DNA from: a virus
Virus record (IMG/VR): IMGVR_UViG_3300043436_000717
Span: 1-25,333 of that record
DNA: 25,333 nucleotides
Direction: 5' to 3' (one strand)
Of this stretch, positions 2,293 through 20,100 are shown one piece after another; position 1 is the first letter of the stretch; each line of letters begins with the position of its first letter. A program made the position numbers and the translations under genes. Under the pieces are notes generated by a model that was not told the origin of the DNA, did not search any database, and saw only the letters and a list, made by a program, of their open reading frames with translations.

Positions 2293-2359
2293 AGATAGAT
2301 TCTACGAGATACTCGGTTACGCAATAGGAATATTAATATTAATACTTTTACACAAATGA
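2285..2359 (+). CDS. 24-residue single-pass membrane peptide
   Basis: A very short frame that starts 8 bases before the end of the preceding gene and ends in an ATGA overlap with the Rad52-like gene. It encodes a charged head (MLKDRFYE) followed by an uninterrupted hydrophobic stretch (ILGYAIGILILILL) and a HK tail, the shape of a single-span membrane microprotein. Its overlaps fill what would otherwise be a 63-base gap, matching the junction style of all neighbouring genes. Without it the spacing here would be unusual for this operon. Function unknown; it may also serve only to couple translation. Confidence 0.5.
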   Translation: MLKDRFYEILGYAIGILILILLHK

Positions 2360-3348
2360 ATTTACAAGAACTAACAAGACCACTAGATATTAGTGACATC
2401 GACTTCAGGGTACAGTCAATTAATAATGGTGGCTATGCTACGATTCTAGCATACAAAGATGCACGTGTAGATATGGCACGATTAGATGCTGCTGTTGGTC
2501 CATTAGGTTGGCAACGTAAGCATGAGTTTATTAACGGTAAGTTATTCTGCCACGTAGGTTTGTATTCTTATGATGCAAATGCTTGGGTATGGAAATCTGA
2601 CGTAGGTACTGAGTCAATGACTGAAGCCACCAAGGGTGAATCTTCTGACTCATTCAAGCGTGCTTGCTTCAATTGGGGTATTGGCCGTGAGTTGTATGAC
2701 TATCCTTTAATCTCTGTCAAGCTTAATGACAATGAATGGTCAAAGGATGGTGGCAGACCTAAGCAAACATACAGCCTTAAGATCCGTGATTGGACATGGT
2801 ACTCTGAGTTCACTGATGGTCGTGTATCATTCCTTGCTGCTAAAGATGAGAATGGTAAGCTAAGATTCAAGTGGGGCGAGATGAAACCTAAGCAAGCAGA
2901 ACCTGAGTTCAAGCCGGCATCTGCACCTGCTGAAGTACAAGAAGAAGTACAGCCTGATGTACAACCTGCTCCAGTGCAAGTACCTGATGAAGCTAACGTG
3001 AAAGGTATACTTAAGCCACAAGCTGATGAATCTGATCCCGAGCGTGATGCATTAGTTGCTGAGTACAATCAGCTGTATGGTAAGAATCCTGATAAGCGCA
3101 TGAAGAATGAGACAATCAAGAAAGCTATCCAAGATAAGGTAGATGAGATTCTTGATGAGGGATTGACTGAAGAAGAAGTTGAAGAGGAAACTATCTCTGA
3201 CTACTTTGATAAGGTGAAATCAATTACTGATCCTAAGCAGTTCATTCAATGGGCCAAGGATACGGTAGCTAAGTTCCCTGATGCGCCACAAGACCATGTG
3301 GATATGTTCAAAGAACTATGTAATGCTCACTACAAATCTATTATGTAA
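2356..3348 (+). CDS. Rad52/Rad22-family single-strand annealing protein
   Basis: A 330-residue protein. Residues 1-140 match the Rad52/Rad22 DNA-annealing family found in phages, with the signature KGESSDSFKRACFNWGIG at 93-110 followed by RELYDYP. A Pro/Glu/Val-rich linker (about 176-212) separates this core from an acidic helical C-terminal region (about 220-330) that probably contacts partner proteins such as SSB. Such proteins anneal complementary single strands during phage recombination and replication. The gene begins in an ATGA overlap and ends in a TAATG overlap with the next gene, suggesting translational coupling. The recombination role fits the SSB and DUF1064 nuclease-like genes further downstream. 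Confidence 0.85.
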   Translation: MNLQELTRPLDISDIDFRVQSINNGGYATILAYKDARVDMARLDAAVGPLGWQRKHEFINGKLFCHVGLYSYDANAWVWKSDVGTESMTEATKGESSDSFKRACFNWGIGRELYDYPLISVKLNDNEWSKDGGRPKQTYSLKIRDWTWYSEFTDGRVSFLAAKDENGKLRFKWGEMKPKQAEPEFKPASAPAEVQEEVQPDVQPAPVQVPDEANVKGILKPQADESDPERDALVAEYNQLYGKNPDKRMKNETIKKAIQDKVDEILDEGLTEEEVEEETISDYFDKVKSITDPKQFIQWAKDTVAKFPDAPQDHVDMFKELCNAHYKSIM

Positions 3349-3830
3349 TGATTGATATCTTTAAAGAAGATAGCAATGGAATGGTTATAGCCTTGGATAA
3401 TTTATCTAAGGCTAACCTTTCTAATATAGCTAACGAAATTGTAAAAACCTCTGTTGACGGAGGATATGAAGACCCAATTGAAGCTTACGTTAAAGCTAAG
3501 GGTATTGCAGAAATTGCTGATCAAATCATGAGCGGACTTAAGCATTATGCTATCAAGGATGCGTATAAGTTTGATAAAGATCAGAAAGTATTAGGTTGCT
3601 CAGTTGTTGTTAAGAACACACCTACTACCTATGACTACTCCCATAACGATGAATGGTCTGAGATAAATAACCAAATCGCACAGCTTAAGGAACGTCAGAA
3701 AGAAATCGAGAAGCAGATGATTCAGGCTATGTCAGTTGCCCAGTTGATCGATAACGATGGCGTAGTAGTTGAGCCTGCTATTGTGAAGAAAGAAGGATCA
3801 GAGACAATACAAATCACAATACCTAAATAA
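3348..3830 (+). CDS. Hypothetical partner of the annealing protein
   Basis: A 160-residue protein joined to the Rad52-like gene by a TAATG overlap. The N-terminal half is helical. The middle carries a TYDYSHNDEWSEINNQIAQL segment leading into a Lys/Glu-rich coiled coil (about 105-128), and the end is a short beta-type tail (IQITIPK). The YDYS..W-plus-coiled-coil arrangement is common in proteins next to phage single-strand annealing genes, and I recall similar proteins of unknown function there. A role in recombination is inferred from position only. Confidence 0.65.
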   Translation: MIDIFKEDSNGMVIALDNLSKANLSNIANEIVKTSVDGGYEDPIEAYVKAKGIAEIADQIMSGLKHYAIKDAYKFDKDQKVLGCSVVVKNTPTTYDYSHNDEWSEINNQIAQLKERQKEIEKQMIQAMSVAQLIDNDGVVVEPAIVKKEGSETIQITIPK

Positions 3831-3849
3831 CCTTTAAACAACAAGAACA

Positions 3850-4026
3850 ATGATTAAATTTTATATGGTAATAACATTAGCAATAGTACAATTTATTGTG
3901 TGTAGTTCATTAATTCTTATTTATAGAAAGAGTAAAGAACCAAAACACGAAGGAATAGTATTTGGTTCTGTATTTGGAGTTGGGCTATCTTTTGCCTATG
4001 TAATTGAAGCATTTGGAAACCTTTAA
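3850..4026 (+). CDS. 58-residue two-span membrane protein
   Basis: The first gene of the repeat-led array, preceded by a perfect repeat copy. It has two hydrophobic segments, residues 5-25 (YMVITLAIVQFIVCSSLILIY, trimmed ends) and about 36-55 (GIVFGSVFGVGLSFAYVIEA), joined by a basic RKSKEPKH loop. A small inner-membrane protein is likely. Its stop codon TAA lies inside the next repeat copy. I do not recognise the family. Early phage membrane proteins of this size often act in superinfection exclusion, but nothing here proves that. Confidence 0.65.
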   Translation: MIKFYMVITLAIVQFIVCSSLILIYRKSKEPKHEGIVFGSVFGVGLSFAYVIEAFGNL

Positions 4027-4038
4027 ACAACAAGAACA

Positions 4039-4233
4039 ATGAAGAAACAAACTTGGATTGACACTTATCTCGGTAGATTTAAGTGGTATAGAAAATTAAG
4101 AAAAGGAACTTGGTATAAACGTTCATTTAATGATAATGCTTACCAATTAAGGTTGAAATCTTACTCTAATTATTGGACAAGATATGGTGGGAGAAGTAGT
4201 TATTGTGAAGTAATAGAAATAGAAAACATTTAA
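4039..4233 (+). CDS. Small Trp/Tyr-rich protein, paralogue of 4908-5126
   Basis: A 64-residue basic protein beginning MKKQTWIDTYLG. It lines up with the protein at 4908-5126 through TWID..LG..WYR..R.G.WY and a W-R-Y pattern near the middle, so the two are paralogues. It is rich in Trp, Tyr and Arg and probably forms a small beta-sheet fold. The preceding leader is a perfect repeat copy and the gene stops at the TAA within the next (variant) copy. Function unknown. Confidence 0.65.
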   Translation: MKKQTWIDTYLGRFKWYRKLRKGTWYKRSFNDNAYQLRLKSYSNYWTRYGGRSSYCEVIEIENI

Positions 4234-4245
4234 ACAACAATACCA

Positions 4246-4425
4246 ATGAAAGAAGGTTTTATAGCAGGTGCTAAATGTCAACAAAAGAAAATGTTTACTG
4301 AAGAACAATTAGCAATAGCTATGTTAGATTTCGGTTTATATATTGCTGAAAATAGAGGTAAACCAATTGACACTGATAATAAAATAGAAGAAATTATTGA
4401 ACAACTTAAACAACAAGAACAATGA
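4246..4425 (+). CDS. 59-residue hypothetical protein with KQQEQ tail
   Basis: Preceded by the variant leader copy (CAACAATACCAATG). The protein starts MKEGFIAGAKCQQKK, has an amphipathic helix (EEQLAIAMLDFGLYIAENRG) and ends in EEIIEQLKQQEQ. The last five residues are encoded by the next repeat copy, and the stop is the TGA of an ATGA overlap with the following start. The family is not recognised; it may be a small helical protein of the kind common in Bacteroidetes phages. Confidence 0.6.
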   Translation: MKEGFIAGAKCQQKKMFTEEQLAIAMLDFGLYIAENRGKPIDTDNKIEEIIEQLKQQEQ

Positions 4426-4640
4426 AAACAGCAGTAGAATGGTTTTATGATGAAATCAAACACATTTTACCCAATGACTATGTAAAGAAGTATGAACAAG
4501 CAAAAGATATTGAAATGAAACATCTTGCACAAGCATTTGAAGATGGTGAGCACAACTACTTCTACTCCAAAAAGACGGGAGAAGATTTTGAGAGTGGTGT
4601 TGAATATTACAATGAGAAATTTAAACAACAAGAACAATGA
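4422..4640 (+). CDS. Small phage protein of the 'TAVEW' type
   Basis: 72 residues: MKTAVEWFYDEIKHIL, then YEQAKDIEMKH and a C-terminal EYYNEKF before the repeat-encoded KQQEQ. This TAVEW...QAKxxE...YYNE arrangement is a recurring small-protein family in Bacteroidetes phages and mobile elements, of unknown function. Two relatives are in this window (4637-4933 and 11292-11486). The ATGA overlaps at both ends imply translational coupling along the array. Confidence 0.7.
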   Translation: MKTAVEWFYDEIKHILPNDYVKKYEQAKDIEMKHLAQAFEDGEHNYFYSKKTGEDFESGVEYYNEKFKQQEQ

Positions 4641-4933
4641 AAAACAATAAACAACAGACGGCAGTGGACATTATTTATCAAGGGATTAGTGATAAAATAG
4701 TTATGCAAGATTTGAACAAAGCATTAATTTGTATTCATATTTCACACGACGATTTCCTTAAACTACATAAACAAGCCAAAGAAATGGAGAAGGAGCAGAT
4801 GAAAGAAATGGAATTCTTGAAATTTCAACGTGACGTATACATTAAAGACATTGAAATACTAAAAGCACGGCTAAGAGAGGCTGAGCAAAACCTAAACAAC
4901 AAGAACAATGAAACAAAAACACACTTGGATTGA
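4637..4933 (+). CDS. Coiled-coil relative of the 'TAVEW' family
   Basis: 98 residues. An N-terminal TAVDIIYQGI and a central LHKQAKEMEKEQMKEMEFLK relate it to the protein at 4422-4640. The region from about residue 48 to 90 is Lys/Glu/Leu-rich and should form a coiled coil. Uniquely in the array, it reads through the next repeat copy in the third frame (NNKNN) and ends 26 bases inside the following gene. This shows that the repeat is not kept for its coding content. Confidence 0.65.
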   Translation: MKNNKQQTAVDIIYQGISDKIVMQDLNKALICIHISHDDFLKLHKQAKEMEKEQMKEMEFLKFQRDVYIKDIEILKARLREAEQNLNNKNNETKTHLD

Positions 4934-5126
4934 TTCGTGTTTAGGTAATTATGATTGGTATAGACAAATAAGAGGTGGAGTTTGGTATCAGCACGTTTAT
5001 ACTGATGATTCTATTGAATTAAAATTAAATACCCACCAATTTTTTTGGGCAAGATATTTTCAAGATGATAAAAATCTTACAATCGTCTCATTTATAGAAA
5101 CATATACTAAACAACAAGAACAATGA
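4908..5126 (+). CDS. Small Trp/Tyr-rich protein, paralogue of 4039-4233
   Basis: 72 residues beginning MKQKHTWIDSCLGNYDWYRQ. It shares TWID..LG..WYR..R.G.WY and the later W-A/T-R-Y motif with the protein at 4039-4233, indicating a duplicated cassette that has since diverged. It has the KQQEQ tail from the repeat, where its paralogue instead stops at the repeat's TAA, so the two copies meet the repeat in different frames. Function unknown. Confidence 0.65.
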   Translation: MKQKHTWIDSCLGNYDWYRQIRGGVWYQHVYTDDSIELKLNTHQFFWARYFQDDKNLTIVSFIETYTKQQEQ

Positions 5127-5344
5127 AAGAAGAAATTGTAAGAGAATCAGGAGTTGACTCATATGTAGTTGACTTTGGAAAGAATGGTCAAGGAATCACT
5201 AATGAGTTAGTCCTTATTGGCAAACGCATAGAAGATTTGAGTGAATATTATAATGTGTATATGAGCAGCGATAGCTTCATTGATGCAGCAGATGATGTTT
5301 ACACTTTGAAATTTATCTTATCACCTAAACAACAAGAACAATGA
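5123..5344 (+). CDS. 73-residue acidic hypothetical protein
   Basis: MKEEIVRESGVDSYVV is followed by ELVLIGKRIEDLSEYYNVYM and an acidic region (SDSFIDAADDVYTLKF) before the repeat-encoded KQQEQ. The acidity could suit a DNA mimic or a small protein-binding protein, but that is speculation. It begins and ends in ATGA overlaps carried by the leader repeat. No family recognised. Confidence 0.6.
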   Translation: MKEEIVRESGVDSYVVDFGKNGQGITNELVLIGKRIEDLSEYYNVYMSSDSFIDAADDVYTLKFILSPKQQEQ

Positions 5345-5598
5345 GTTTAAGTAAAAAGAAATTAGCAGAATTAGAAACTAAAATAGGGGAGGTATTTAAG
5401 ATTAGTACAGACCCAAGTCCTGAAAATTTTGTTATTCTTGATAAAATCATTCCATCTATCAAGTCAGGTGCTTGGAACTCTAGTGAATCAGTTTCATTAT
5501 TGTTTTGTGAAAAAGACGGAACAAGAATAGGTACAGGAAGCACAAGTATGACAACAACTCTATTTTATAAAAAATACTTTAACCAACAAGAACAATGA
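5341..5598 (+). CDS. 85-residue hypothetical protein
   Basis: MSLSKKKLAELETKIGEVF forms a probable N-terminal helix, followed by a mixed region with SESVSLLFCEKDGTRIG, which looks like a beta hairpin. The end is NQQEQ, encoded by the last, slightly altered repeat copy. The gene overlaps its neighbours by ATGA at both ends. No family recognised. Confidence 0.6.
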   Translation: MSLSKKKLAELETKIGEVFKISTDPSPENFVILDKIIPSIKSGAWNSSESVSLLFCEKDGTRIGTGSTSMTTTLFYKKYFNQQEQ

Positions 5599-5801
5599 AA
5601 CAAATAACAAAATCAGTAATTAAGCTATCGGAGATTCCCGAGCATTTACAAAAAGACGAAATCCTACAAGGACACAAAGTGCATACATACGCAGAGTTCC
5701 ACATTGATGACTCCGAACAAGATGAGTTGACCTTGTGGCTATTGAGTCAGTACCCTACATTAAAACGAAAGACAAGTTTTTTAATACATATAGACCTATG
5801 A
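5595..5801 (+). CDS. 68-residue hypothetical protein, last of the array
   Basis: The ninth and last gene led by the repeat. The protein starts MKQITKSVIKLSEIPEHLQ and has an acidic middle (HIDDSEQDELTLWLL). It ends without the QQEQ tail because no repeat copy follows; the stop is in an ATGA overlap with the next gene at 5798. Family not recognised. Confidence 0.55.
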   Translation: MKQITKSVIKLSEIPEHLQKDEILQGHKVHTYAEFHIDDSEQDELTLWLLSQYPTLKRKTSFLIHIDL

Positions 5802-5917
5802 AACTAAACAAAGATGACCGCAGAGAAGAAATGGCAGCTTGGGGAACTATGTTTCTAATTAGCGTAATCGTTATTGCGATAATTATAGCAACTATAACAA
5901 CGATATTTGGATTCTAA
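5798..5917 (+). CDS. 39-residue single-pass membrane protein
   Basis: I chose the ATG at 5798, which makes the ATGA overlap with the gene before; a longer in-frame version would overlap that gene by 67 bases. The charged head MKLNKDDRREEMAAW is followed by one strong membrane helix (about residues 17-37, rich in Ile and Val) to the C-terminus. Probably a small inner-membrane protein of unknown role. Confidence 0.55.
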   Translation: MKLNKDDRREEMAAWGTMFLISVIVIAIIIATITTIFGF

Positions 5918-5918
5918 T

Positions 5919-6092
5919 ATGGAAACAGGAGTCAAAGAAAATGTCTTGCTTCAGATTAAAGAATTGAATGATGATATCAATCAAATCAATAAAGACATCA
6001 AGAGCCTTCAGGCAAAACGAGAGACAAGAAAAGAAAAGATAAAGGCTCTCATCTTAATATTAAGTAACCAACTAGAACTAGACATTGAATAA
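5919..6092 (+). CDS. 57-residue coiled-coil protein
   Basis: Starts at the ATG at 5919, two bases after the preceding stop. Almost the whole chain (about residues 8-50) shows heptad-like spacing of Leu and Ile with Asn/Lys/Glu between, indicating a coiled coil. Such small coiled-coil proteins are frequent in phage early regions; a structural or binding role is likely but unproven. Confidence 0.55.
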   Translation: METGVKENVLLQIKELNDDINQINKDIKSLQAKRETRKEKIKALILILSNQLELDIE

Positions 6093-6093
6093 C

Positions 6094-6621
6094 ATGGAAG
6101 AAAGCAAACAAGAAGAAGTTGTTAATCCTGACACAGTAAAACTACTTCGTGCTGTAATGAAAGTATCTTCATCGCTTAATGACCTTGATGATTTGATATA
6201 CCAAGGCGATTACTTTAAGTATCAATTTAAGCGTGAGGCATCAAAGTGGATGGTCCTAATGGAATACCATACCAAGACGCTGATGAGCTCTCTCGTGGAA
6301 GAAGATCACACTCTACTGCAAGAGATTTACAATTCACTAGAAGAATCATCTCAGGGGGTTTCAGCTGGAAAGAAGACATCACTAATCTTATTCTACGCTA
6401 AACTTAAAAGTTGTCTGAATGACCTAGACAAGATGGAAGAGAATAGAGATGCTTTCTACCCTAGATTCATCCGAGTACATACTGAAAAGGTAGTTAAGGA
6501 GATGGAGAAGCAGCACTACTCAATCATTCATACTATTGATGCTGATGGTAAAGATGTCAACCACATCATTAAATTCTTCGATGAATTTACTGAAACAATT
6601 ATGACTTATTCAGAAAAGTAA
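6094..6621 (+). CDS. 175-residue helical hypothetical protein
   Basis: Starts at the ATG at 6094, one base after the preceding stop; an in-frame TTG at 6085 is less likely. The chain is nearly all helical, with charged heptad-like stretches (KLLRAVMKVSSSLNDLDDL; LKSCLNDLDKMEENRD). It contains no catalytic motif I can recognise. The last gene before the replication module, it could be a replication accessory protein, an inference from position only. Confidence 0.55.
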   Translation: MEESKQEEVVNPDTVKLLRAVMKVSSSLNDLDDLIYQGDYFKYQFKREASKWMVLMEYHTKTLMSSLVEEDHTLLQEIYNSLEESSQGVSAGKKTSLILFYAKLKSCLNDLDKMEENRDAFYPRFIRVHTEKVVKEMEKQHYSIIHTIDADGKDVNHIIKFFDEFTETIMTYSEK

Positions 6622-7393: not shown

Positions 7394-8776
7394 ATGAATC
7401 AGATGCAGCTACGCTCAGAGCAAATAGTCTTGCACTCTATGCTTATGCACCCCTCTACCATTCACGACATCATGGGTAAGGTATCTTCTGATATGTTTGC
7501 CACACCCATAAACAAAGTAATCTTTGAAGCTGCATACGAACTTTATTTATCTCAAGAACCGATTAATGTCATAGCACTCAGTCAGGTGCTGATGAAGAAG
7601 AACACGATGTATAAGCGTGATTCTATCTCAGAGGTTTCCAACATTGTATCTATGGGTGCTGTTGGATCTAATGAATTAAGCAGTTCAATATACTTTTTGG
7701 TATCAGAAAGTGTACGTCACGAGCACATTGATTTAGCTAAAAAGATAGAGAAGATGTCCGCTGATGATTCATATGACCCTCAGAACGTGATAAACACGCT
7801 ACAGGCACACATCACGGATAATAAGTTCAAGTCTATCATCAGGAAGAAAGATTTCGATAACGAATCACTACTCCAAGAGTTAGACAAGAAAATGCTTGAT
7901 GCTTCAACGAAAGAGGGTGTAAGCGGTATAGAGACTGGATACAAAAGGTTCGATGTCCTGACATCAGGTATGCAACCTACTAACCTTATCATCATTGCTG
8001 CACGACCTGCTATGGGTAAGACACAGTACGCCTTAGGGCTAATGAAACACGCATCCATTCGTAATAACTACAAAGGCCTATTCATATCGTGTGAAATGGA
8101 TGAGGTTCAGGTTATGAAGAGAGTTATCTCTGTTGATAGTGGCATCCCCGGATATCACATCAAACGTGGTAGACTTGAGACACGTGAGATTATGCGTTAC
8201 GAGAAATCAAAGAAGCGAATCATCAATTCGAACATGAAGATCGTTGCAGGTTCTTTCACGATTACTGATGTGCTTTCAATGGTATACAAGATGAAATACT
8301 CTGAAGGACTTGACTACGTTGTCATAGATTACATTCAGAAGATACAAAGTCCAGGTGCTCAAAACAGGACCAATGAAGTAGGCGATGTATCTAGGAAGCT
8401 TAAGGATATGGCTAACGAACTTAAGATACCTGTCATAGCATTGGCTCAGTTATCTCGTGCGGTAGAACACAGGACTGATAAGAAACCTATGTTGTCTGAC
8501 CTTAGGGAATCAGGCGATATCGAACAGGATGCTGACATTGTTATGTTCTTGTATCGTAATGGCTACTATATGTCTCCTGAGGAAAAGGATAACAATCCTA
8601 TGGCAGACGATGGGTATGCAATCATTGCAAAGCATAGGGATGGAGAACTTGAGGACATACACCTTAGGTTTGATGCAAACATTCCTGCTTGGAAGAATCC
8701 ATATGATTCTGATGAACCTGACGAAGATTACGTTCAGACAGCACTAAGACCTAATAACGACTTTGATATATTCTGA
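7394..8776 (+). CDS. dnaB: DnaB-type replicative helicase
   Basis: A 460-residue protein with the two-domain layout of DnaB. An N-terminal helical domain (about 1-105) is followed by a linker and a RecA-fold ATPase domain (about 175-440). Walker A is ARPAMGKTQ (203-211), Walker B is YVVIDYIQ (308-315), and the DnaB motif LAQLSRAVEHR (350-360) and DLRESGDIEQDADIVMFLYR (369-388) follow. Length and motifs fit an active 5'-3' replicative helicase that unwinds the phage fork as a hexamer. It is preceded by the DnaA-like and loader-like genes, forming a compact initiation set. No primase is visible in the window; host DnaG may be used. Confidence 0.95.
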   Translation: MNQMQLRSEQIVLHSMLMHPSTIHDIMGKVSSDMFATPINKVIFEAAYELYLSQEPINVIALSQVLMKKNTMYKRDSISEVSNIVSMGAVGSNELSSSIYFLVSESVRHEHIDLAKKIEKMSADDSYDPQNVINTLQAHITDNKFKSIIRKKDFDNESLLQELDKKMLDASTKEGVSGIETGYKRFDVLTSGMQPTNLIIIAARPAMGKTQYALGLMKHASIRNNYKGLFISCEMDEVQVMKRVISVDSGIPGYHIKRGRLETREIMRYEKSKKRIINSNMKIVAGSFTITDVLSMVYKMKYSEGLDYVVIDYIQKIQSPGAQNRTNEVGDVSRKLKDMANELKIPVIALAQLSRAVEHRTDKKPMLSDLRESGDIEQDADIVMFLYRNGYYMSPEEKDNNPMADDGYAIIAKHRDGELEDIHLRFDANIPAWKNPYDSDEPDEDYVQTALRPNNDFDIF

Positions 8777-9771: not shown

Positions 9772-10132
9772 GTACGGCAATAAGAAAATTGAGTTAGATG
9801 GTGTCAAGTTTGATTCCAAGCTGGAATTATTCTGTTACCAACAATTTAAGAGTTTGGGGCTAGAATTCGACTTTCAAAGAACAATACTCTTGCAGGAAGG
9901 ATTTAGATTCAAAGGTAAGTGGATACGACCTATTACTATGATTGTAGACTTTGTACTTCATCACGATGGACAAAATATCTACATAGACACAAAAGGGTTC
10001 GCTACCGAGACATCTAAGCTGAAATACAAGATGCTAAAGTTTTATGTAAGAGAAGATTCTACTGCTGATGTGGTTTGGCTACACTCCCAAAAAGAAGTCA
10101 AAGAGTTTTTATTTAATTTATTAAAGTTATGA
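9740..10132 (+). CDS. DUF1064 family nuclease-like protein
   Basis: 130 residues matching the DUF1064 phage family: SKYGNKKIELDGVKFDSKLEL at the N-terminus, IVDFVLHHD (68-76), and YIDTKGFATETSKLKYKML. The arrangement E29 - D70 - D83-x-K85 is that of a PD-(D/E)XK-type nuclease core, and members are often suggested to process recombination or replication intermediates. The reaction has not been shown from sequence. It sits between the MazG-like gene and ssb, overlapping both, and thus belongs with the recombination set that includes the Rad52-like protein. Confidence 0.8.
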   Translation: MAKITQSKTSKYGNKKIELDGVKFDSKLELFCYQQFKSLGLEFDFQRTILLQEGFRFKGKWIRPITMIVDFVLHHDGQNIYIDTKGFATETSKLKYKMLKFYVREDSTADVVWLHSQKEVKEFLFNLLKL

Positions 10133-10545
10133 GTAGTGTAAACAAAGTAGTCCTACTGGGAAATGTAGGTGGAGTCGAAGTTAAAAGCTTCGAGAATGGT
10201 AAGAAGTTAGTTCAGTTGTCATTGGCAACGTCTGACGGTTACAAAAAGGGTGATAAGTGGGAAGAGAAAACAGAGTGGCATCGCTGCATCTTTGCTATCC
10301 CTGCCCTTGCTGAAAGAGCAGCTGGAATTCAAAAAGGTGATAAGATCTATGTTGAAGGAAGCATTAACACAAATTCTTGGACAACCAAAGATGGTGAGAA
10401 GAAAGAGATCAAAGAGATTTCTTGTACAATGTTTAAGACTTTTGTAAAAGCTAAGACAGAGCAAAAAGAATTCAATCAACCTAAGACAACCGTTACTGAA
10501 AGTAAGAGCGATTGGACTCAGGAGTCGGATGATATTCCTTTCTGA
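10129..10545 (+). CDS. ssb: Single-stranded DNA-binding protein
   Basis: 138 residues. The N-terminal about 105 residues are an OB-fold SSB: VNKVVLLGNVGGVEVK, LSLATSD, EKTEWHRCIFAIPALAERAA, GDKIYVEGSI and a C-terminal strand. A short Ser/Thr/Asp-rich linker ends in DDIPF, the acidic tip that recruits replication and repair partners. It should coat phage single strands and cooperate with the Rad52-like annealing protein. It starts in an ATGA overlap with the DUF1064 gene and is followed by the structured intergenic stretch. Confidence 0.95.
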   Translation: MSSVNKVVLLGNVGGVEVKSFENGKKLVQLSLATSDGYKKGDKWEEKTEWHRCIFAIPALAERAAGIQKGDKIYVEGSINTNSWTTKDGEKKEIKEISCTMFKTFVKAKTEQKEFNQPKTTVTESKSDWTQESDDIPF

Positions 10546-11293: not shown

Positions 11294-11486
11294 GACAGCA
11301 GTAGAACAACTAGCTACGCAACTTAAGAAAAACCACGGAATAGATTTAACGCTATACGATGAGTTCAATGAAGCCAAAGAAATGGAGAAAGAGAGATTGC
11401 TAGAATTTGGAACTAAAGTAGCAATGAAAGCACATACAGGACAAAGCGGTTGGTCTATCATAGAAGTATATAATGAAAACAAATGA
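11292..11486 (+). CDS. Small phage protein of the 'TAVEW' type
   Basis: 64 residues: MTAVEQLATQLKKNHGIDL, then FNEAKEMEKERL and a C-terminal IEVYNENK. It belongs to the same recurrent Bacteroidetes phage family as the proteins at 4422-4640 and 4637-4933 (TAVE...QAKEMEKE...YNE), but uses a different leader from the repeat array. Function unknown. Its end overlaps the next gene by 14 bases. Confidence 0.75.
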   Translation: MTAVEQLATQLKKNHGIDLTLYDEFNEAKEMEKERLLEFGTKVAMKAHTGQSGWSIIEVYNENK

Positions 11487-11736
11487 CAAAGTACAATGTT
11501 GGTCTTGTTACCAGTTTAAAACGCTCGATAAGTATGACCAAAATAGACGAGAATACAATAGACCAAGCAGAAAAGGAGCTCTATTTAGCTGTAAGAGATG
11601 CACACGAGCAAGAGTGCTGCGTGAACTACGAGCAGTGCGATACGACTTCGGAGAACGAAAATTCGTAGTACACCACTTTAAGAATAAAAACCAAGCACTT
11701 AAATTTATAAAGAATGAAAGCAACACTAGAGTTTGA
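11473..11736 (+). CDS. Zinc-ribbon-like small protein
   Basis: 87 residues with two CxxC pairs, C9-W-S-C12 and C40-K-R-C43, in a small basic N-terminal domain that probably binds one zinc ion. The C-terminal part is basic (ARVLRELRAVRYDFGERKF). Small phage zinc-ribbon proteins of this type may bind DNA or RNA polymerase, but no exact family is evident. A competing frame at 11483-11668, which would make an ATGA overlap, lacks the paired cysteines and is less convincing. It overlaps the next gene by 23 bases. Confidence 0.65.
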   Translation: MKTNDKVQCWSCYQFKTLDKYDQNRREYNRPSRKGALFSCKRCTRARVLRELRAVRYDFGERKFVVHHFKNKNQALKFIKNESNTRV

Positions 11737-11941
11737 TGATGAGCAGGAGCTCAGAGATGCCATTGACGGATGGAAATGGAAACACGCAATTTTTATGTTT
11801 GATCAGAAGATGAGAGAAACAACAAAGCGTGGATTAATAGAGGGCGTAGAAGCCAATGATGATCAGGTAAAGAATGCTGAGTACTGGAGAAACCAACTCA
11901 GATACATTCTAAGTGATAACGGATTAGATATCGAATCATGA
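11714..11941 (+). CDS. Conserved small phage protein
   Basis: 75 residues: MKATLEFDDEQELRDAIDGWKW, then FDQKMRETTKRG and a C-terminal EYWRNQLRYIL. The start MKATLEF...E...A..G.K....FDQ.LR is a recurrent small protein in Bacteroidetes phages and integrated elements; function unknown. An ATGA overlap joins it to the HTH-like gene that follows. Confidence 0.7.
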   Translation: MKATLEFDDEQELRDAIDGWKWKHAIFMFDQKMRETTKRGLIEGVEANDDQVKNAEYWRNQLRYILSDNGLDIES

Positions 11942-12171
11942 CAGAATACGAATTAGAATTGAATTCTCAGGATCTAGGAGAGATCATTGAGATACTTAGG
12001 GTGCAACACTTCAGGATGCACGCTGAACCATTCGCTCAGAAGATCGGAATGAAAGAAAATGTTCTGCTATCTGTAGAAGAAGGTCGAGGACCACACGGAT
12101 TACTCGCCTTAAAGAAAATTAATGATACCTTCCACAATGTGAAGGTTACATTTAAGGTCCAAATTAATTAG
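11938..12171 (+). CDS. Probable XRE-type HTH protein
   Basis: 77 residues. Residues 31-65 (PFAQKIGMKENVLLSVEEGR, then LLALKKINDTF) follow the Cro/CI helix-turn-helix pattern, with the two helices and the 'E-x-G' turn in the usual places. An N-terminal EYELELNSQDLGEIIEILR segment precedes it. A DNA-binding regulator is likely, and the palindromes at 9091 and 10827-10879 are possible targets. It is the last + strand gene; its stop (12169-12171) overlaps the stop of the convergent minus strand gene by two bases. Confidence 0.65.
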   Translation: MTEYELELNSQDLGEIIEILRVQHFRMHAEPFAQKIGMKENVLLSVEEGRGPHGLLALKKINDTFHNVKVTFKVQIN

Positions 12172-12305
12172 CGACCTTGCCCTATGTTTCGCTTAACGTA
12201 GTTCTTAGAACCCTTAATTTTAGAAGACTTGGATTTCGCATGAGTTCCAGGTCTTTTCTTTTTAGGGGTTTCTAATTTAGTGCCAGTGTTAATCTGCTTT
12301 GCCAT
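12168..12305 (-). CDS. 45-residue basic phage protein
   Basis: MAKQINTGTKLETPKKKRPG is followed by THAKSKSSKIKGSKNYVKRN and IGQGR. The very basic KRPG-HAK-KSSK-KGSKNY-K-GQGR composition is a small conserved protein I associate with Bacteroidetes phages, probably binding nucleic acid. Function unknown. Its ATG overlaps the stop of the upstream gene by one base (TAATG), and its stop overlaps the convergent + strand gene. Confidence 0.65.
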   Translation of the reverse strand: MAKQINTGTKLETPKKKRPGTHAKSKSSKIKGSKNYVKRNIGQGR

Positions 12306-12586
12306 TACTTAAAGAATTTGCGTTTTTTGTCAGCACGATTCTTAGATTGTGACTGACTAATGGTTTTAGTTTTAGACGTGTGTGCGACATCTTTGCCATC
12401 TCCGTTACCATGAGTTCCATTTTCACGATTAATCGCCTGTAAAACGGCTCTATATCGTTTTCTAGAGGGTGTATCTTGATACTTAGTATCGTAAGCCACC
12501 TTTTTCTTACGAGCTTCAGGGTTCTCCTGATAGTATTTAGCACTTTTTGACTTACCTGTCTTTGTGCCTGCTAACTTATTTCTCAT
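12305..12586 (-). CDS. Small basic HNH-like/DUF phage protein
   Basis: 93 residues, strongly basic. The N-terminus GTKTGKSKSAKYYQENPEAR is followed by RYRAVLQAINRENGTHGNGDGKD, then VAH and later SQSKNRADKK. The GNGDGKDVxH...SxSxNR pattern recurs in small virion-associated or HNH-like phage proteins (where D and H would bind metal), but the HNH core is incomplete. Phage assembly or DNA-handling roles are guesses. TAATG junctions at both ends place it in the lysis operon. Confidence 0.65.
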   Translation of the reverse strand: MRNKLAGTKTGKSKSAKYYQENPEARKKKVAYDTKYQDTPSRKRYRAVLQAINRENGTHGNGDGKDVAHTSKTKTISQSQSKNRADKKRKFFK

Positions 12587-14526: not shown

Positions 14527-14561
14527 CAAATATAATAAATTTAGTGTAATGGTACCCAAGT
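14527..14561 (-). promoter_or_regulatory. Minus-strand promoter for the lysis operon
   Basis: On the minus strand TATATTTG (14534-14527) matches the Bacteroidetes -7 element exactly. A TTG about 22 bases upstream inside the tail-fibre gene's last codons is a possible -33 element. Transcription would begin a few bases before the ATG at 14511. It would allow lysis genes to be transcribed apart from the tail genes. Confidence 0.6.
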
Positions 14562-17150
14562 ACTTCCGTTATAGACTGTTAATTTATTATTAGTTGTGTC
14601 ATAAACAACCAAACCAGCTGCTGGGGTTGATATAGCATTCATTTCAGTGTTTGTCATTCTTGGAGGAAGGAACCCTTTACTTCTAGATGTAACATCTAAT
14701 ATAGCTGATCTTTCAGGACTCATAGTTCCAACACCCATAGCAGGGCTTTGTAGATTTCCTTGTATTGTAACAAAGTCAATTCTTTGGAAAGAGCTATCTA
14801 CTACGTTAAATATGTGCGACTCTAATGCATAATGTCTATTAGAGTTACCACTATTTATATAAATAGCTTGATTAATGTTCAATAAGTTATTAAGCTGTAT
14901 CAAACCATCATCAAAGACGTTAACTAGTTTTGTTCCAACTGCATTTCTTACAGTTAGGGCAGCTGTGCTACCTGTAGATCCACTTCCATATATCTCAAGT
15001 TTAGCTCCAGGGGAAGTAGTGCCGATGCCTACGTTGCCCCCATCTGAAATACGCATCCTTTCATAACCTGTTGTTGCAAAAACTAATCCATAGTATCCAG
15101 AAAGCTGAACAAGATTAAAGTTTGAACTCAAGCCATAGTGAGCTGTATCAATACCATTTAAACTAAATGAATCTGTAACACCCCATCCAATCTTTGTACC
15201 ATTAATTGAAATATTGCCTGCAACATTTAATTTTGCACCAAATGGATATACTCCAGTATTTGTTGTACCTACTCCAACACTACCACCACCATAAGCTAAG
15301 AACACATTATTATATCTTCCTATGTAAGTGTTACTACCTCCGTCATTAGCAAGATAAAGATTAGCGCTGTCTAAATATCCAACAGCAGATGTTCTATTAT
15401 AAGTTGAATCAGTAATGGTTAGAAAAGTATTTGTGCCTCCTATATGTAATTTTGAGTCTGGAGAATTAACACCAATACCCACATTACCTGAAGGGAATAT
15501 AGTATTACCACCAATAACATTGCCTGCGTATACAGCACTATCAGCACTAAAGTCTGATATATATGTCATTGCTGGTGCATTATTGAACCATATTCCACCC
15601 ATTCCTGGTGGGTTATCTGTAGTTAAGTTTCTATTAGTTTTAACTACTGCTATGCATCTATTGTAATATCTTAACTCTACATAAATAGGTAAATATCTTA
15701 AGTCTCCAGAAATAACAACTGGCGTTCCTATAGATACTTGGAAATTATTAGCACCTGTACCTGACATTTCTACCAAATACTTATTGGCACCTGCTGACCA
15801 ACCGTAAGTGACAAGATATCTTTTCTTTAAACCATCTGAGTAATATTTTTCATAAAGTTCTATCTCAATAATACCTGTCTCATTCCAGTCATTGTAATCA
15901 ATTGTAGCTCTTGCAATTTCATATCTTGTAGCACTTGTACCATCAGCATATAAGATATTTGTAACCATTGTGCTTACACCTCTCTGACGATAAGTACCTA
16001 AAGATCCTTGATTATCAAGAGATGCAATTGGACTTGTTGTACTAATTCCAACAGCACCTGCTGCCGTAATATTTAGTATTTTACTAGCAAAAGAACCACC
16101 TGTATCATTACCAATATGGAGCGTACTACTGTTATCACTAGTTATACCAATCTTCCATGTGTTTATTCCTGGATGATCAATACTATAAGAACCTGATGTA
16201 CTATTTAGTGTTCCTGTTGTTATTACTGTACCATTTATATCTAATTTAGTATATGGACTGGTTGTGCCAATACCTATATTGCCTCCATCTGTAATAGATA
16301 ATCTATTAACCCAACTACCAGACCACGTATAAAAATTGTGACCATTTTGGTCAGCATAATAAGTAATGCCACCACCATTACTATTATCAAGTCTTAGTTC
16401 ACCACCAAAAGAACCATTATAATATAACCCGTTTCCAGATATATTTCCATTTACATCAAGTTTAGTTCCAGGAATAGTTGTACCAATACCAACATTACCA
16501 TTGGCTATCATCCTCATTACCTCAGGACCACCAAGCCCGTTCCATCCTGGACTATTAGATGATCCATTGACATTAAATGCCAATATACCTGTAGTAGCAA
16601 GTCTACTTACACCACCATCTGATGAAAGTGTTGTTGATAGATTTTCTCCATATTCATAAAGTCTTATGGTTGGCGCATCATCTTGTTGGATTAATAAAGT
16701 ATCATAAACAACATGAGCTTTTTGACTATTACTTGAATTTAATATTGCTACCTGAGTAGCATTTACATCAAAGCTTCCTTGAGAAACACTTAATTTATTT
16801 AAAGGATTAGTGCCTCCAATACCTAGATTACCACCAGATGTAAGGTACATTCTAGTATTTCCGTTAGTACCAAAAATAATAGGAGCATTGGCTCTGTTCC
16901 ATACATATCCTTGATTACTACTATCCTGACCATACAACATACTAGTAGAACCTAATGTATTCCCATTACCTGATACTTCTATGTAAGCATTTGTTCCAGC
17001 CCCTCTATAAACAGATATGGCACTAACAGGTGTTGGTGTACCTACTCCTAAATTACCATCAATACCTAAGTCTCCTAATGCAGGATCAGGGTTAGTGGAT
17101 GCACCAACATATATTGAACGGGATTGTATGTTATCAAATCTACTTGACAT
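14541..17150 (-). CDS. Tail-fibre-like repeat protein
   Basis: 869 residues with about eight copies of the 'GNVGIGTTSPGAKLDV' repeat (for example near residues 33, 107, 215, 289 and in the C-terminal third). Such repeats form beta-structured, probably trimeric shafts of Bacteroidetes phage tail fibres. Residues about 385-550 interrupt the series with a non-repetitive globular stretch (RYEIARATIDYNDW, IIEIELYEKYYSDG, PIYVELRYYNRCIAVVKTNR). The end is SRSKGFLPPRMTNTEMNAI and a VVYDTTNNKLTVYNGSTW tip, common at the C-terminus of such proteins. It lacks a peptidase S74 domain. Role in host binding inferred; it follows one base after the larger fibre gene. Confidence 0.8.
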   Translation of the reverse strand: MSSRFDNIQSRSIYVGASTNPDPALGDLGIDGNLGVGTPTPVSAISVYRGAGTNAYIEVSGNGNTLGSTSMLYGQDSSNQGYVWNRANAPIIFGTNGNTRMYLTSGGNLGIGGTNPLNKLSVSQGSFDVNATQVAILNSSNSQKAHVVYDTLLIQQDDAPTIRLYEYGENLSTTLSSDGGVSRLATTGILAFNVNGSSNSPGWNGLGGPEVMRMIANGNVGIGTTIPGTKLDVNGNISGNGLYYNGSFGGELRLDNSNGGGITYYADQNGHNFYTWSGSWVNRLSITDGGNIGIGTTSPYTKLDINGTVITTGTLNSTSGSYSIDHPGINTWKIGITSDNSSTLHIGNDTGGSFASKILNITAAGAVGISTTSPIASLDNQGSLGTYRQRGVSTMVTNILYADGTSATRYEIARATIDYNDWNETGIIEIELYEKYYSDGLKKRYLVTYGWSAGANKYLVEMSGTGANNFQVSIGTPVVISGDLRYLPIYVELRYYNRCIAVVKTNRNLTTDNPPGMGGIWFNNAPAMTYISDFSADSAVYAGNVIGGNTIFPSGNVGIGVNSPDSKLHIGGTNTFLTITDSTYNRTSAVGYLDSANLYLANDGGSNTYIGRYNNVFLAYGGGSVGVGTTNTGVYPFGAKLNVAGNISINGTKIGWGVTDSFSLNGIDTAHYGLSSNFNLVQLSGYYGLVFATTGYERMRISDGGNVGIGTTSPGAKLEIYGSGSTGSTAALTVRNAVGTKLVNVFDDGLIQLNNLLNINQAIYINSGNSNRHYALESHIFNVVDSSFQRIDFVTIQGNLQSPAMGVGTMSPERSAILDVTSRSKGFLPPRMTNTEMNAISTPAAGLVVYDTTNNKLTVYNGSTWVPLH

Positions 17151-17151
17151 C

Positions 17152-20100
17152 TTATATGATTTTCACAAATTTAAAGTTAATAGTGGTGTTAGCAAAGTGA
17201 GAGTAGTTTGCTGATATTTGGAATTTACCGTTACCTCCATCAGCAGCTGTTTCCTCTTTAGTTCTTAAATAAAGAACAGTGCTATTAGCAGCATGCCCCA
17301 TGCGGTGTAGTGCTATCTCTGATGCAGCAGGTGTGCCTGATTGATTAGTTCCACCTTGAAACCAAGTAAATGTTCCTGAATATGTATACTGATAATGCTC
17401 TCCACCTGTAGCATAGTCACTTATATACATATTTACCATCCAAGTACCTGATGTCAATACATTATTTGCTCTTGTAAATATATCTACCCAAGTACCATTT
17501 ACAACTTGACCTACCCAATTAAAATCTACTCTAGCATTAGGAAGTAAATCGTATACAGATGTAGCAGTAGGAACGTCAGAGCTATATGCTATTTTTTTCC
17601 AAGGCATCCAAGTGCTGCCATTGATCTTTGTTCTGCTATATATTTCATTCTCAGTATTACCTGCCCCGTAAGATGTAGCAAGTTGGTGTACCCATCCTGC
17701 ATCTGAATGCCTTTCTACTGTAACATAGAACCAACCAGCATTAGGAGCATTTCCTAAACTGGATCCTGCGTAGAATCCAGCAGTAGTAACATCATTTAAG
17801 TCTCCACCACTAATTTGAATACCTTGGGTATATTGGAACTTATCTACAAATGCTTGACCAGCTACCTCAAATTTAACTCCTGGATTAGTAGTATTAATAC
17901 CTACATTACCATTAGATTTTTTTATATATAATGCTTGAGTACCCGAACCATAAGAATAGAATCCTAAATCTCCTGTTCCAGTATTATTGACTATTTGCCA
18001 ATCTAGAGAATTATCTCTAGTTAGTAGTATTCCACCGTCTGCAGATGAGCTTTTATTTAACCAGAAATAATAACTAGAACTAGAATTTCCATAATTAAAT
18101 CTAAAATCTCCACCATCAACAGCAAGTATACCTTGAGGACTAGTAGTTCCTATTCCAACGTTACCGCTAGTAGTAATATATAATCTATCCCAAGTACCGT
18201 TGGCACCCAATGAGAGAGCATTTCCAGATTGCCCCATGACAATAGCTTTACTACCATCCCATGTTAATGCACCTTGATTTGCGGATGCTCCCCATGCTAA
18301 AACACCGTCACCATTAGCTATAATTTTGCTAGTACCTCCTAAGTTAACTCTAAAGCCGTCTGATGTAGAAGATGCAGTTATATCTAATTTATATGCAGGG
18401 CTAGAAATACCAATACCAAAGTTACCTGAGCCAGTAAGTCTCATTCTTTCAGTACCAGCAGATACGTCATACCAGAATAAGTCTCCATTTGATATTGAAG
18501 ACATATTGTATAAGTGACCTGTTGTAGAGTATAAGTATAAAGAAGCTACATTGCTATTAACAATGCTCATAAGCGTCTCAGTACTGCTCATGTATTTTGT
18601 AGGAGTTGTAGTTCCAATACCTACATCACCTACCCCATTTATTACAACTTTAGATGTATTGTTATAATCATTAAACTTGGCAATAAAAGATCCTGTACCT
18701 AAGTCACCTCCGTTAACCTCAAGACCTATACCACCATCTAATCTATATCCAATAAATCCACCGTTTGCATATACATTACCTATTACAGATAGTTTTTGAG
18801 AAGGAGTATTTGTACCAATTCCTAAATTACCTGTAGATCCTTTAATGATCATTGCATCAAACATAGATCCACCTGTATTCATTAATTGAATACCTAAGTC
18901 TGAATCATAGCCGTTTGATGGATTATAATTTAAAAATCTAATAGTAACAGCAGACTGATCATTATAATTTGACTCTAAGAATGTAAATGGGTTTCCAGCT
19001 GATGGGAATCCTGTTACTTCTATTTTATCATTCCAAACATGGAGTTTAGATGTTGGATTGGTTGTACCAATGCCTACATTACCGTTAGAGGCTAACCTCA
19101 TTGTAAAAGATGCTCCAGTATAGATATCTAAAGGATTAGGACTTTCACAATAAATAAAAGGTCTTCCACCATCAGCCCCTATCCTCATATGATTGACGGT
19201 ATTCTGTCTATACTCAGTAAATGTGCCACTAGGAGCATCCATTGAAAATGTCCTGTATCCACTTATTACTGTCATGGCTGAAGTACCTAATCCTAAGTTA
19301 GCATTAGGATCTAATCTCATTAATTCAGAGTATGATAATGAAGAATATGCTGCAGCAGATCCTGCATAACTAAATATCAAATCTGGTGTTTGATCTCTAT
19401 CATGCTGTATTCTATAGGCAGAAGAAGTATTCACACCTGTATGCGCTACAAACTCTATTTTAGCTCCACCATTAGATGTAGCAGAACTTAAGTAAGAACC
19501 ATCAAAATTATATGTTCCTCTTACACGTAATGATTTTTGAGCACCTGATATGCCTATGTCAACTAATTGTGTAGGATTAGTATTACCTATACCAAGTTGC
19601 CCGATAGAATTCCATAGCCCTTTGTAGAATCCAGCACCTTCAAAGTAATGACTTCCTACAGTTCTATAGTAAGAGTCACTATTATAATATCCTAAATAAT
19701 CTCCTGCTCCAGATCCAAAATATATTGTAGCACCAAGAGAAGAATTTTGAAGTCTTAAGTTACCTACTACATCTAGTTTTTCAGCTGGAGAAGCAGTACC
19801 AATACCTACATTAGTCCCATTGTCATAAAGAACACCTGTGCTAATATTAGAAGATGATGTCCATCTTGCAACATAGTTAGCAGAACCTGTACCTGTGACA
19901 GGATTTGTTATAACATCTTGATACTGAGGTATGTTTAATGTACTACCAATCAAAGTGGCAGGTCCACTTGTACCTGTAGTAGTAAGTGTTATTGCATTCT
20001 GCTTATTGTTGAAAGTGTTCCAATCAAAATAACTAAGGTAACCATCTGTAAATGGTGTTGCCTGAGTAATGCCAATAGTACCACTACCTGTTATAGTACC

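Follow-up and report, generated by a model that had tools for sequence, protein, structure and literature searches.

Phages carry many tiny genes of unknown function; how they come by these genes and rearrange them is an open question, and the joins between such genes are rarely visible. The question is raised by the viral IMG/VR record IMGVR_UViG_3300043436_000717, analysed here over its entire length of 25,333 bases (the window), in which the joins are marked by a fixed sequence. Between positions 3835 and 5597 of its + strand, the window carries nine copies of TAAACAACAAGAACAATG, hereafter the leader (seven exact, one with a single mismatch and one with two), whereas shuffled versions of the window contain 0.10 copies on average and one at most. 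Each copy supplies the start codon of a small open reading frame (ORF), and the nine genes (c1 to c9, Table 1) span 3835-5801. An earlier note on this DNA had described nine such leader-started genes at spacings of about 190-270 bases and proposed that the leader is a start/stop cartridge at which recombination adds, removes and reorders tiny genes. The nine ATG-opened ORFs were recovered, the leader-to-leader spacing proved somewhat wider (176-271 nucleotides, nt), and cassettes were found to change neighbours exactly at the leader. In the reading that we hold to be likely, the leader is a Kozak-like start fused to a stop, which doubles as the seam of promoterless single-gene cassettes, probably through homology-driven annealing.

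Comparison of contigs, all of them metagenome assemblies, shows the leader to be the point at which cassettes come in, drop out and acquire new neighbours. This holds inside a single backbone as well as among phages whose backbones have no detectable DNA similarity. Leaders flank 232 cassettes on both sides in 100 loci, and among 113 pairs of cassettes that are at least 85% identical and lie in different contigs, the neighbours differ on both sides in 96, on one side in 12 and on neither side in 5. Over these 96 pairs, identity on the 5' side is 0.90-1.0 from leader position -15, 0.61 at -16 and mostly 0.25-0.5 beyond; at the other end, values of about 0.8-1.0 persist up to +3, followed by 0.64, 0.57 and 0.45 from +4. 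Choosing cassettes by their leader inflates identity within the leader; the informative part of these profiles is the drop on both sides. The first upstream-profile test was chosen on the leader in this manner, whereas the samples of cassettes F3 and c9 were not, and exposed other leaders (see below). Regarding exchange between phages, an identity of at least 95% is reached by 54 cassette pairs. For 27 of them, the remaining DNA of the two contigs aligns over less than 5% of the smaller contig, and for 23 there is no other DNA alignment. Additionally, the 174-kb record IMGVR_UViG_3300028025_000091 (L009) holds at 11318-12466 a duplication with a period of 651 nt (498 nt seen, 100% identical, reaching the contig end), which begins exactly at leader position -15, as would be expected if two leaders had undergone unequal exchange.

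The same behaviour is seen at one fixed place in the genome. Backbone relatives of the window, found via the annealing protein, keep the order of the 160-amino-acid (aa) gene, a variable slot, the conserved gene g6094 and then the replication genes. Contig L133, whose flanking and replication proteins are 96-99% identical to those of the window, has two unrelated leader-led cassettes in the slot against nine in the window, and the two contigs have a common 30-nt seam with sequence differing on each side of it. One to five other leader-led genes occupy the slot in L135, L138 and L140, and in L143-L147 g6094 stands directly after the 160-aa gene. L134 and L135 have flanks about 98% or more identical (98.3% just upstream); what sets them apart is a single 78-aa cassette together with the 3' part of the gene ahead of it, which belongs to the commonest cassette family, F1. 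Across loci, 49 trios show genes A-B adjoining in one contig and A-X-B in another. Cassettes of the window itself are re-joined elsewhere: in L323, c6 (97.5% nt identity) is connected by one leader to c9 (93.6%), without c7 and c8, and in L322, c7 (88.9%) is connected via a variant leader to c9 (95.2%), without c8. The c6-c9 junction comes from sample 3300042519 and the c7-c9 junction from sample 3300044637. The earlier note had named as contrary evidence the same gene order in related phages with diverged leaders; what was found is that near relatives keep the backbone and the same leader and carry other cassettes.

Could assembly across short repeats have produced this re-pairing? All contigs are metagenome assemblies with repeated seams of 17-30 nt, which speaks for such an artefact, and still we consider it very unlikely. 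The genes on either side of a seam keep their reading frame and stop inside the seam, and some junctions recur across contigs, as in the 5 pairs with both neighbours the same and the 12 with one. Moreover, insertions into the backbone occur with edges outside any leader; an example is the additional run of some seven small genes in L133, several of them leader-led, which separates two genes that are direct neighbours in the window. The k-mers used by assemblers are normally longer than the leader core, which also counts against an artefact.

The fit between leader and coding sequence is equally close on the upstream side. Genes standing directly before a leader end at its ATGA in 72 of 130 cases and at its TAA in 39, i.e., 111 end inside the leader. 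Over 153 upstream ORFs of the array loci, the frame giving a KQQEQ tail is used by 106, the TAA frame by 46 and the read-through frame by one. The three outcomes listed in the earlier note (a KQQEQ ending, a TAA stop or read-through as NNKNN) are all seen in c1-c8, c8 ending as NQQEQ and c5 using the third frame, so that its statement that all three frames are read stands for the window and does not extend to the system as a whole. The common C-terminus that it ascribed to five unrelated proteins is likewise there, although not all window genes are unrelated, as c2 and c6 are paralogues (42% identity over 48 aa). The tail is dependent on the junction: one protein body ends in ..YKVKTFKQQEQ or in ..YKVKTN, and another in ..DVEQLKQQEQ, ..DVE or ..DEGQEN.

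The substitutions that the leader tolerates are unevenly distributed. In 292 near copies, each A from -13 to -3 is changed 3-9 times, A-1 10 times, A-14 16 times and T-15 20 times, and the C/G positions -11, -8, -5 and -2 are changed 28-32 times. In Flavobacterium, a member of a phylum without Shine-Dalgarno starts, A at -3, -6, -12 and -13 aids initiation (Baez 2019, PMC6847099), and the leader has this Bacteroidota Kozak-like preference. Its A positions would be held by selection for initiation. The leader as a whole would serve as an A-rich start context of the Bacteroidota kind, without a Shine-Dalgarno sequence, and would also stop the gene before it whenever that gene enters in either of two frames out of the three (by TAA at -15 or by ATGA). 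Although the C/G positions tolerate change, 191 of the 292 near copies are fully exact, which fits recent common descent through exchange.

This exactness bears on a simpler explanation, according to which the leader is merely a strong translation start and the cassettes are moved around by illegitimate recombination close to gene borders, with selection keeping those products that have the start context and a tight stop-start overlap. Conserved A positions that match known initiation determinants are what it predicts, and tolerant C/G positions that are nonetheless exact in so many copies are not. It also agrees with the finding that cassette families cross leader dialects (see below) and with a core shorter than usual homology minima (PMC3945230). 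However, selection for initiation does not readily account for junctions that, on both sides, fall within the leader and leave hardly any intergenic remnants (those 111 of 130 upstream genes), for a KQQEQ tail common to unrelated proteins or for a duplication that starts exactly at the leader edge. The isolate phage Gundel_1 of Tenacibaculum, with a weak leader match, has gene starts that are A-rich yet neither identical nor repeated. Taken together, this explanation appears rather improbable to us.

The leader is widespread among viruses and confined to gene starts. Its 17-mer occurs in at least 120 IMG/VR viral stretches, many with 2-5 copies and often in same-strand arrays, against 28 stretches, all single-copy, for a permuted 17-mer. 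The pattern of two leaders spaced for one short gene is present in 49 viral stretches, and a 20-letter form of the leader gave four single matches in 257 Gb of bacterial and archaeal genomes. Within array loci, ATG comes next in 214 of the 223 places where the leader 13-mer is found, antisense copies number zero, and 203 of 213 leader starts open at least 20 codons. None of 89 array loci has exact copies on both strands, although one 73-kb record, G030, has copies on both strands at different places. Copies are clustered in whole records of 17-174 kb, one 174-kb record having 22 matches (exact or with one mismatch) on one strand at several sites. Ahead of the remaining gene starts in the window, just 2-8 of 15 positions agree with the leader. 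An origin by chance or base composition, with the 18-mer recurring equally at non-start positions, had been raised in the earlier note; it is ruled out by the shuffles, the permuted control, reversed-pattern controls and the restriction to starts. The start type and a distant F1-like protein in elemo Flavobacterium phages (33% identity, E 0.03) suggest that the hosts of the array phages are probably Bacteroidota.

The system is wider than the earlier note stated, as at least one other leader dialect exists. Cassette F3, sampled regardless of leader, follows the leader described so far (leader A) in 22 of 53 cases and also recurrent other leaders, chiefly CTTTAAATCAGAATAAG (leader B). Viral stretches with leader B (TTAAATCAGAATAAG-ATG) number at least 120. 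This leader likewise stands at the start of small genes: of 187 copies, 167 are followed by an ORF of 30 codons or more, or by one cut off at the contig end. Its upstream proteins receive the tail FKSE. In L136, a relative of the window, B-led cassettes occupy the window's own slot (L136:3819-4567), and leader B is also present in L027, L253, L254 and L264. The end of the commonest cassette family (YYNETFK-) is found ahead of both leaders, and AACCTTT precedes 74 of 276 exact leader copies; it is possible that the leaders were derived from the 3' end of that family's gene. Moves between dialects would need another route, e.g., microhomology at ATGAAA or whole-block exchange.

How are the cassettes moved? 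In the reading favoured here, the array would be a variable slot of promoterless single-gene cassettes with the leader as exchange seam. Any two leader copies may recombine and would always give a translatable junction, because every cassette begins and ends in the same sequence. Exchange would proceed by homology or microhomology annealing during replication, mediated by the phage single-strand annealing protein or by host functions; annealing at the leader is likely, and the enzyme we infer. Rad52-like phage recombinases drive mosaics through short homology (De Paepe 2014, PMC3945230), and annealing proteins were recognised in 19 of 36 array records (12 ERF, 6 Rad52-like and 1 RecT). In 46 of 47 loci, the distance between the start of the annealing gene and the closest leader is 1.36-2.7 kb; a special closeness of the arrays to these genes was rejected, the distances being no shorter than those of random positions in such short loci. 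Several points weigh against annealing at the leader. No annealing protein was recognised in 17 of the 36 records, many of which may be fragments, and the minimum quoted for Red-beta is about 30 bp (PMC3945230), as compared to a leader core of 18 nt, of which just the extended form reaches 30. Furthermore, cassette families such as F3 are also found behind other leaders, and leader-leader homology leaves these moves unexplained. Finally, all exchange evidence comes from comparison of metagenome assemblies.

Precise seams, single-gene units, strict orientation and sharing without backbone DNA similarity could also be the work of a dedicated enzyme or factor of unknown type that recognises the leader and moves cassettes, like the integrase in integrons. 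The gene content does not point that way: a tyrosine recombinase (PF00589) was found in none of the 36 array records, with 14 of 14 controls detected, and no serine recombinase was found in these records either. Predicted folding was no stronger for six leader regions than for their shuffled versions (z -1.1 to +1.0), i.e., the leader is unstructured, and no recombinase-like gene stood out among shared neighbours, not all of which were annotated. A dedicated enzyme is accordingly, in our judgement, unlikely.

As judged by the ratio of nonsynonymous to synonymous substitution rates (dN/dS) and that of the corresponding proportions (pN/pS), the cassette genes are real: dN/dS is 0.03-0.11 between c9 and its homologues, where computable, and pooled pN/pS over cassette pairs is 0.25. 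Leader-led ORFs number 283 and group into 121 families, and no convincing family was found in PHROGs, Pfam or PADLOC for any of the nine window genes. A thioredoxin (PF00085, E 3e-16) is encoded by one leader-led cassette in contigs L011 and L021, the only tested cassette with a clear known fold. No terminator-like site was found in window positions 3300-6100, and sigma-70-like sites are fewer there than in shuffles; the array genes are therefore predicted to be probably cotranscribed. A consensus scan gave no match to a Bacteroidota-type promoter inside the array. Outside it, an exact match of this type (TTTG-N19-TATATTTG) lies at 1741-1771 of the + strand, just upstream of the gene at 1790; it is a candidate operon promoter, about one match being expected by chance. 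The cassettes would be cotranscribed accessory genes whose turnover may help against changing hosts.

The array and its neighbours are listed in Table 1. The membrane-like protein that closes the array (MKLNKDDRREEMAA.., 5798-5917) recurs in array contigs of other phage types (L116, L322, L480, L488, L491, L493 and L502). Among the backbone genes, that for the DnaB helicase is split by about 0.9-1.0 kb in two relatives and, partly seen, in a third (L138:14137-16539; L140:14717-15346; L147:11308-13698), and the annealing-protein gene of G014 is split by about 1.1 kb (54216-55769); these splits look like introns or inteins. On the - strand of the window, 14541-22056 holds two probable tail-fibre genes of very large size, in which degenerate GNVGIGTTSP-type repeats (families D1, D2 and D5) are numerous.

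Table 1. Leaders, cassettes and neighbouring genes of the window.
Feature	Position	Strand	Remarks
Erf/Rad52-like single-strand annealing protein	2356..3348	+	candidate for the recombination step
160-aa conserved gene	3348..3830	+	5' edge of variable slot; directly after annealing-protein gene
leader 1	3835..3852	+	exact; inside 30-nt seam 3824-3853 common to L133
c1	3850..4026	+	58 aa; stop is TAA of leader 2; 97.7% nt identity to L066 copy, which has other neighbours
leader 2	4024..4041	+	exact
c2	4039..4233	+	64 aa; paralogue of c6; stop is TAA of leader 3
leader 3	4231..4248	+	2 mismatches
c3	4246..4425	+	59 aa; tail KQQEQ
leader 4	4407..4424	+	exact
c4	4422..4640	+	72 aa; commonest family F1 (MKTAVEW..); tail KQQEQ
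leader 5	4622..4639	+	exact
c5	4637..4933	+	98 aa; leader 6 read through as NNKNN; stop 26 nt inside c6
leader 6	4893..4910	+	exact
c6	4908..5126	+	72 aa; tail KQQEQ; directly joined to c9 in L323
leader 7	5108..5125	+	exact
c7	5123..5344	+	73 aa; tail KQQEQ; directly joined to c9 in L322
leader 8	5326..5343	+	exact
c8	5341..5598	+	85 aa; tail NQQEQ; absent between c7 and c9 in L322
leader 9	5580..5597	+	1 mismatch
c9	5595..5801	+	68 aa; dN/dS 0.03-0.11; homologues in 33 viral loci
small membrane-like protein	5798..5917	+	39 aa; closes window array
g6094, conserved	6094..6621	+	beyond 3' edge of variable slot
DnaB-type helicase	7394-8776		profile search; conserved replication gene downstream of array
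SSB	10129-10545		profile search; conserved replication gene downstream of array

Several known systems resemble the array in part. Integron cassettes are promoterless single genes in same-strand arrays with a common short boundary sequence, moved on chromosomes by an integrase acting with a foldable attC site. The leader-led cassettes are likewise single ORFs in one orientation (89 loci) and promoterless, the latter by consensus scans only; unlike integron cassettes, they have their seam at the start codon and are found in viral contigs. Membership among integrons is ruled out, as there is no integrase (PF00589 in 0 of 36 records) and no foldable attC-like site.

A closer parallel is offered by the promoter early stem-loop motifs (PeSLs) of T4-type phages, which are said to mediate modular shuffling (Arbiol 2010; Comeau 2014, as cited in PMC4503421). 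In that account, copies of a regulatory sequence separate small genes in the hypervariable parts of phage genomes and are thought to be the seam at which recombination shuffles them, and the leader similarly stands at the borders of shuffled small genes. However, a PeSL is described there as a promoter-terminator motif, whereas the leader is a start fused to a stop, overlapping both coding sequences, with no stem-loop or terminator; the early promoter and stem-loop terminator of PeSLs have no counterpart in the array (no terminator in 3300-6100, no promoter match in the array and an unstructured leader). Unlike PeSLs as so described, the leader is common to phages without backbone DNA similarity. 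In our view, the leader system is a PeSL-like one, set apart by its seam and by how unusually far it reaches.

Start Associated Sequences (SAS) of cluster K mycobacteriophages are, in the available text of PMC3203893, a short asymmetric repeat at the starts of many non-structural genes. Like the leader, SAS is a start-codon repeat on many unrelated genes, nearly always in one orientation, and it sometimes holds the upstream stop. The SAS consensus described there (GGGATAGGAGCCC) has a Shine-Dalgarno core, whereas the leader (TAAACAACAAGAACA) is without AGGAG, and SAS lies mainly behind intergenic gaps of more than 50 bp, whereas the upstream genes mostly end inside the leader (111 of 130). SAS is also essentially confined to one cluster, about half of its copies having a 17-bp inverted repeat, and that text contains no report of exchange at SAS. 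The mosaicism described by De Paepe 2014 (PMC3945230) is likewise a homology-driven exchange via short common sequences and phage annealing proteins; there, the homology is incidental flanking similarity, whereas the array has one standard seam before scores of genes. Similarly, Bacteroidota Kozak-like starts (PMC6847099) share the base preferences of the leader, which is nevertheless one fixed sequence across unrelated genes and phages. No description of this leader was found in the open-access literature.

It is tempting, though tentative, to see in these arrays an undescribed cassette economy of Bacteroidota phages. Phages lacking backbone DNA similarity, whose records range between about 25 kb and more than 170 kb, would take single accessory genes out of one shared pool via a standard start/stop seam, of which at least two dialects exist. 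Beyond its role in translation, this seam may owe its conservation to selection for exchangeability as such, or to a factor recognising it. As the leader marks the junctions, one can count in metagenomes how often genes are gained, lost or re-paired, and measure the size of the shared gene pool. A search with the 17-mer is, in addition, a practical tag for accessory cassettes that annotation would miss, possible counter-defence and host-takeover genes included. If it is true that a start signal doubles as a seam, selection for expression can create standard joints for gene exchange.

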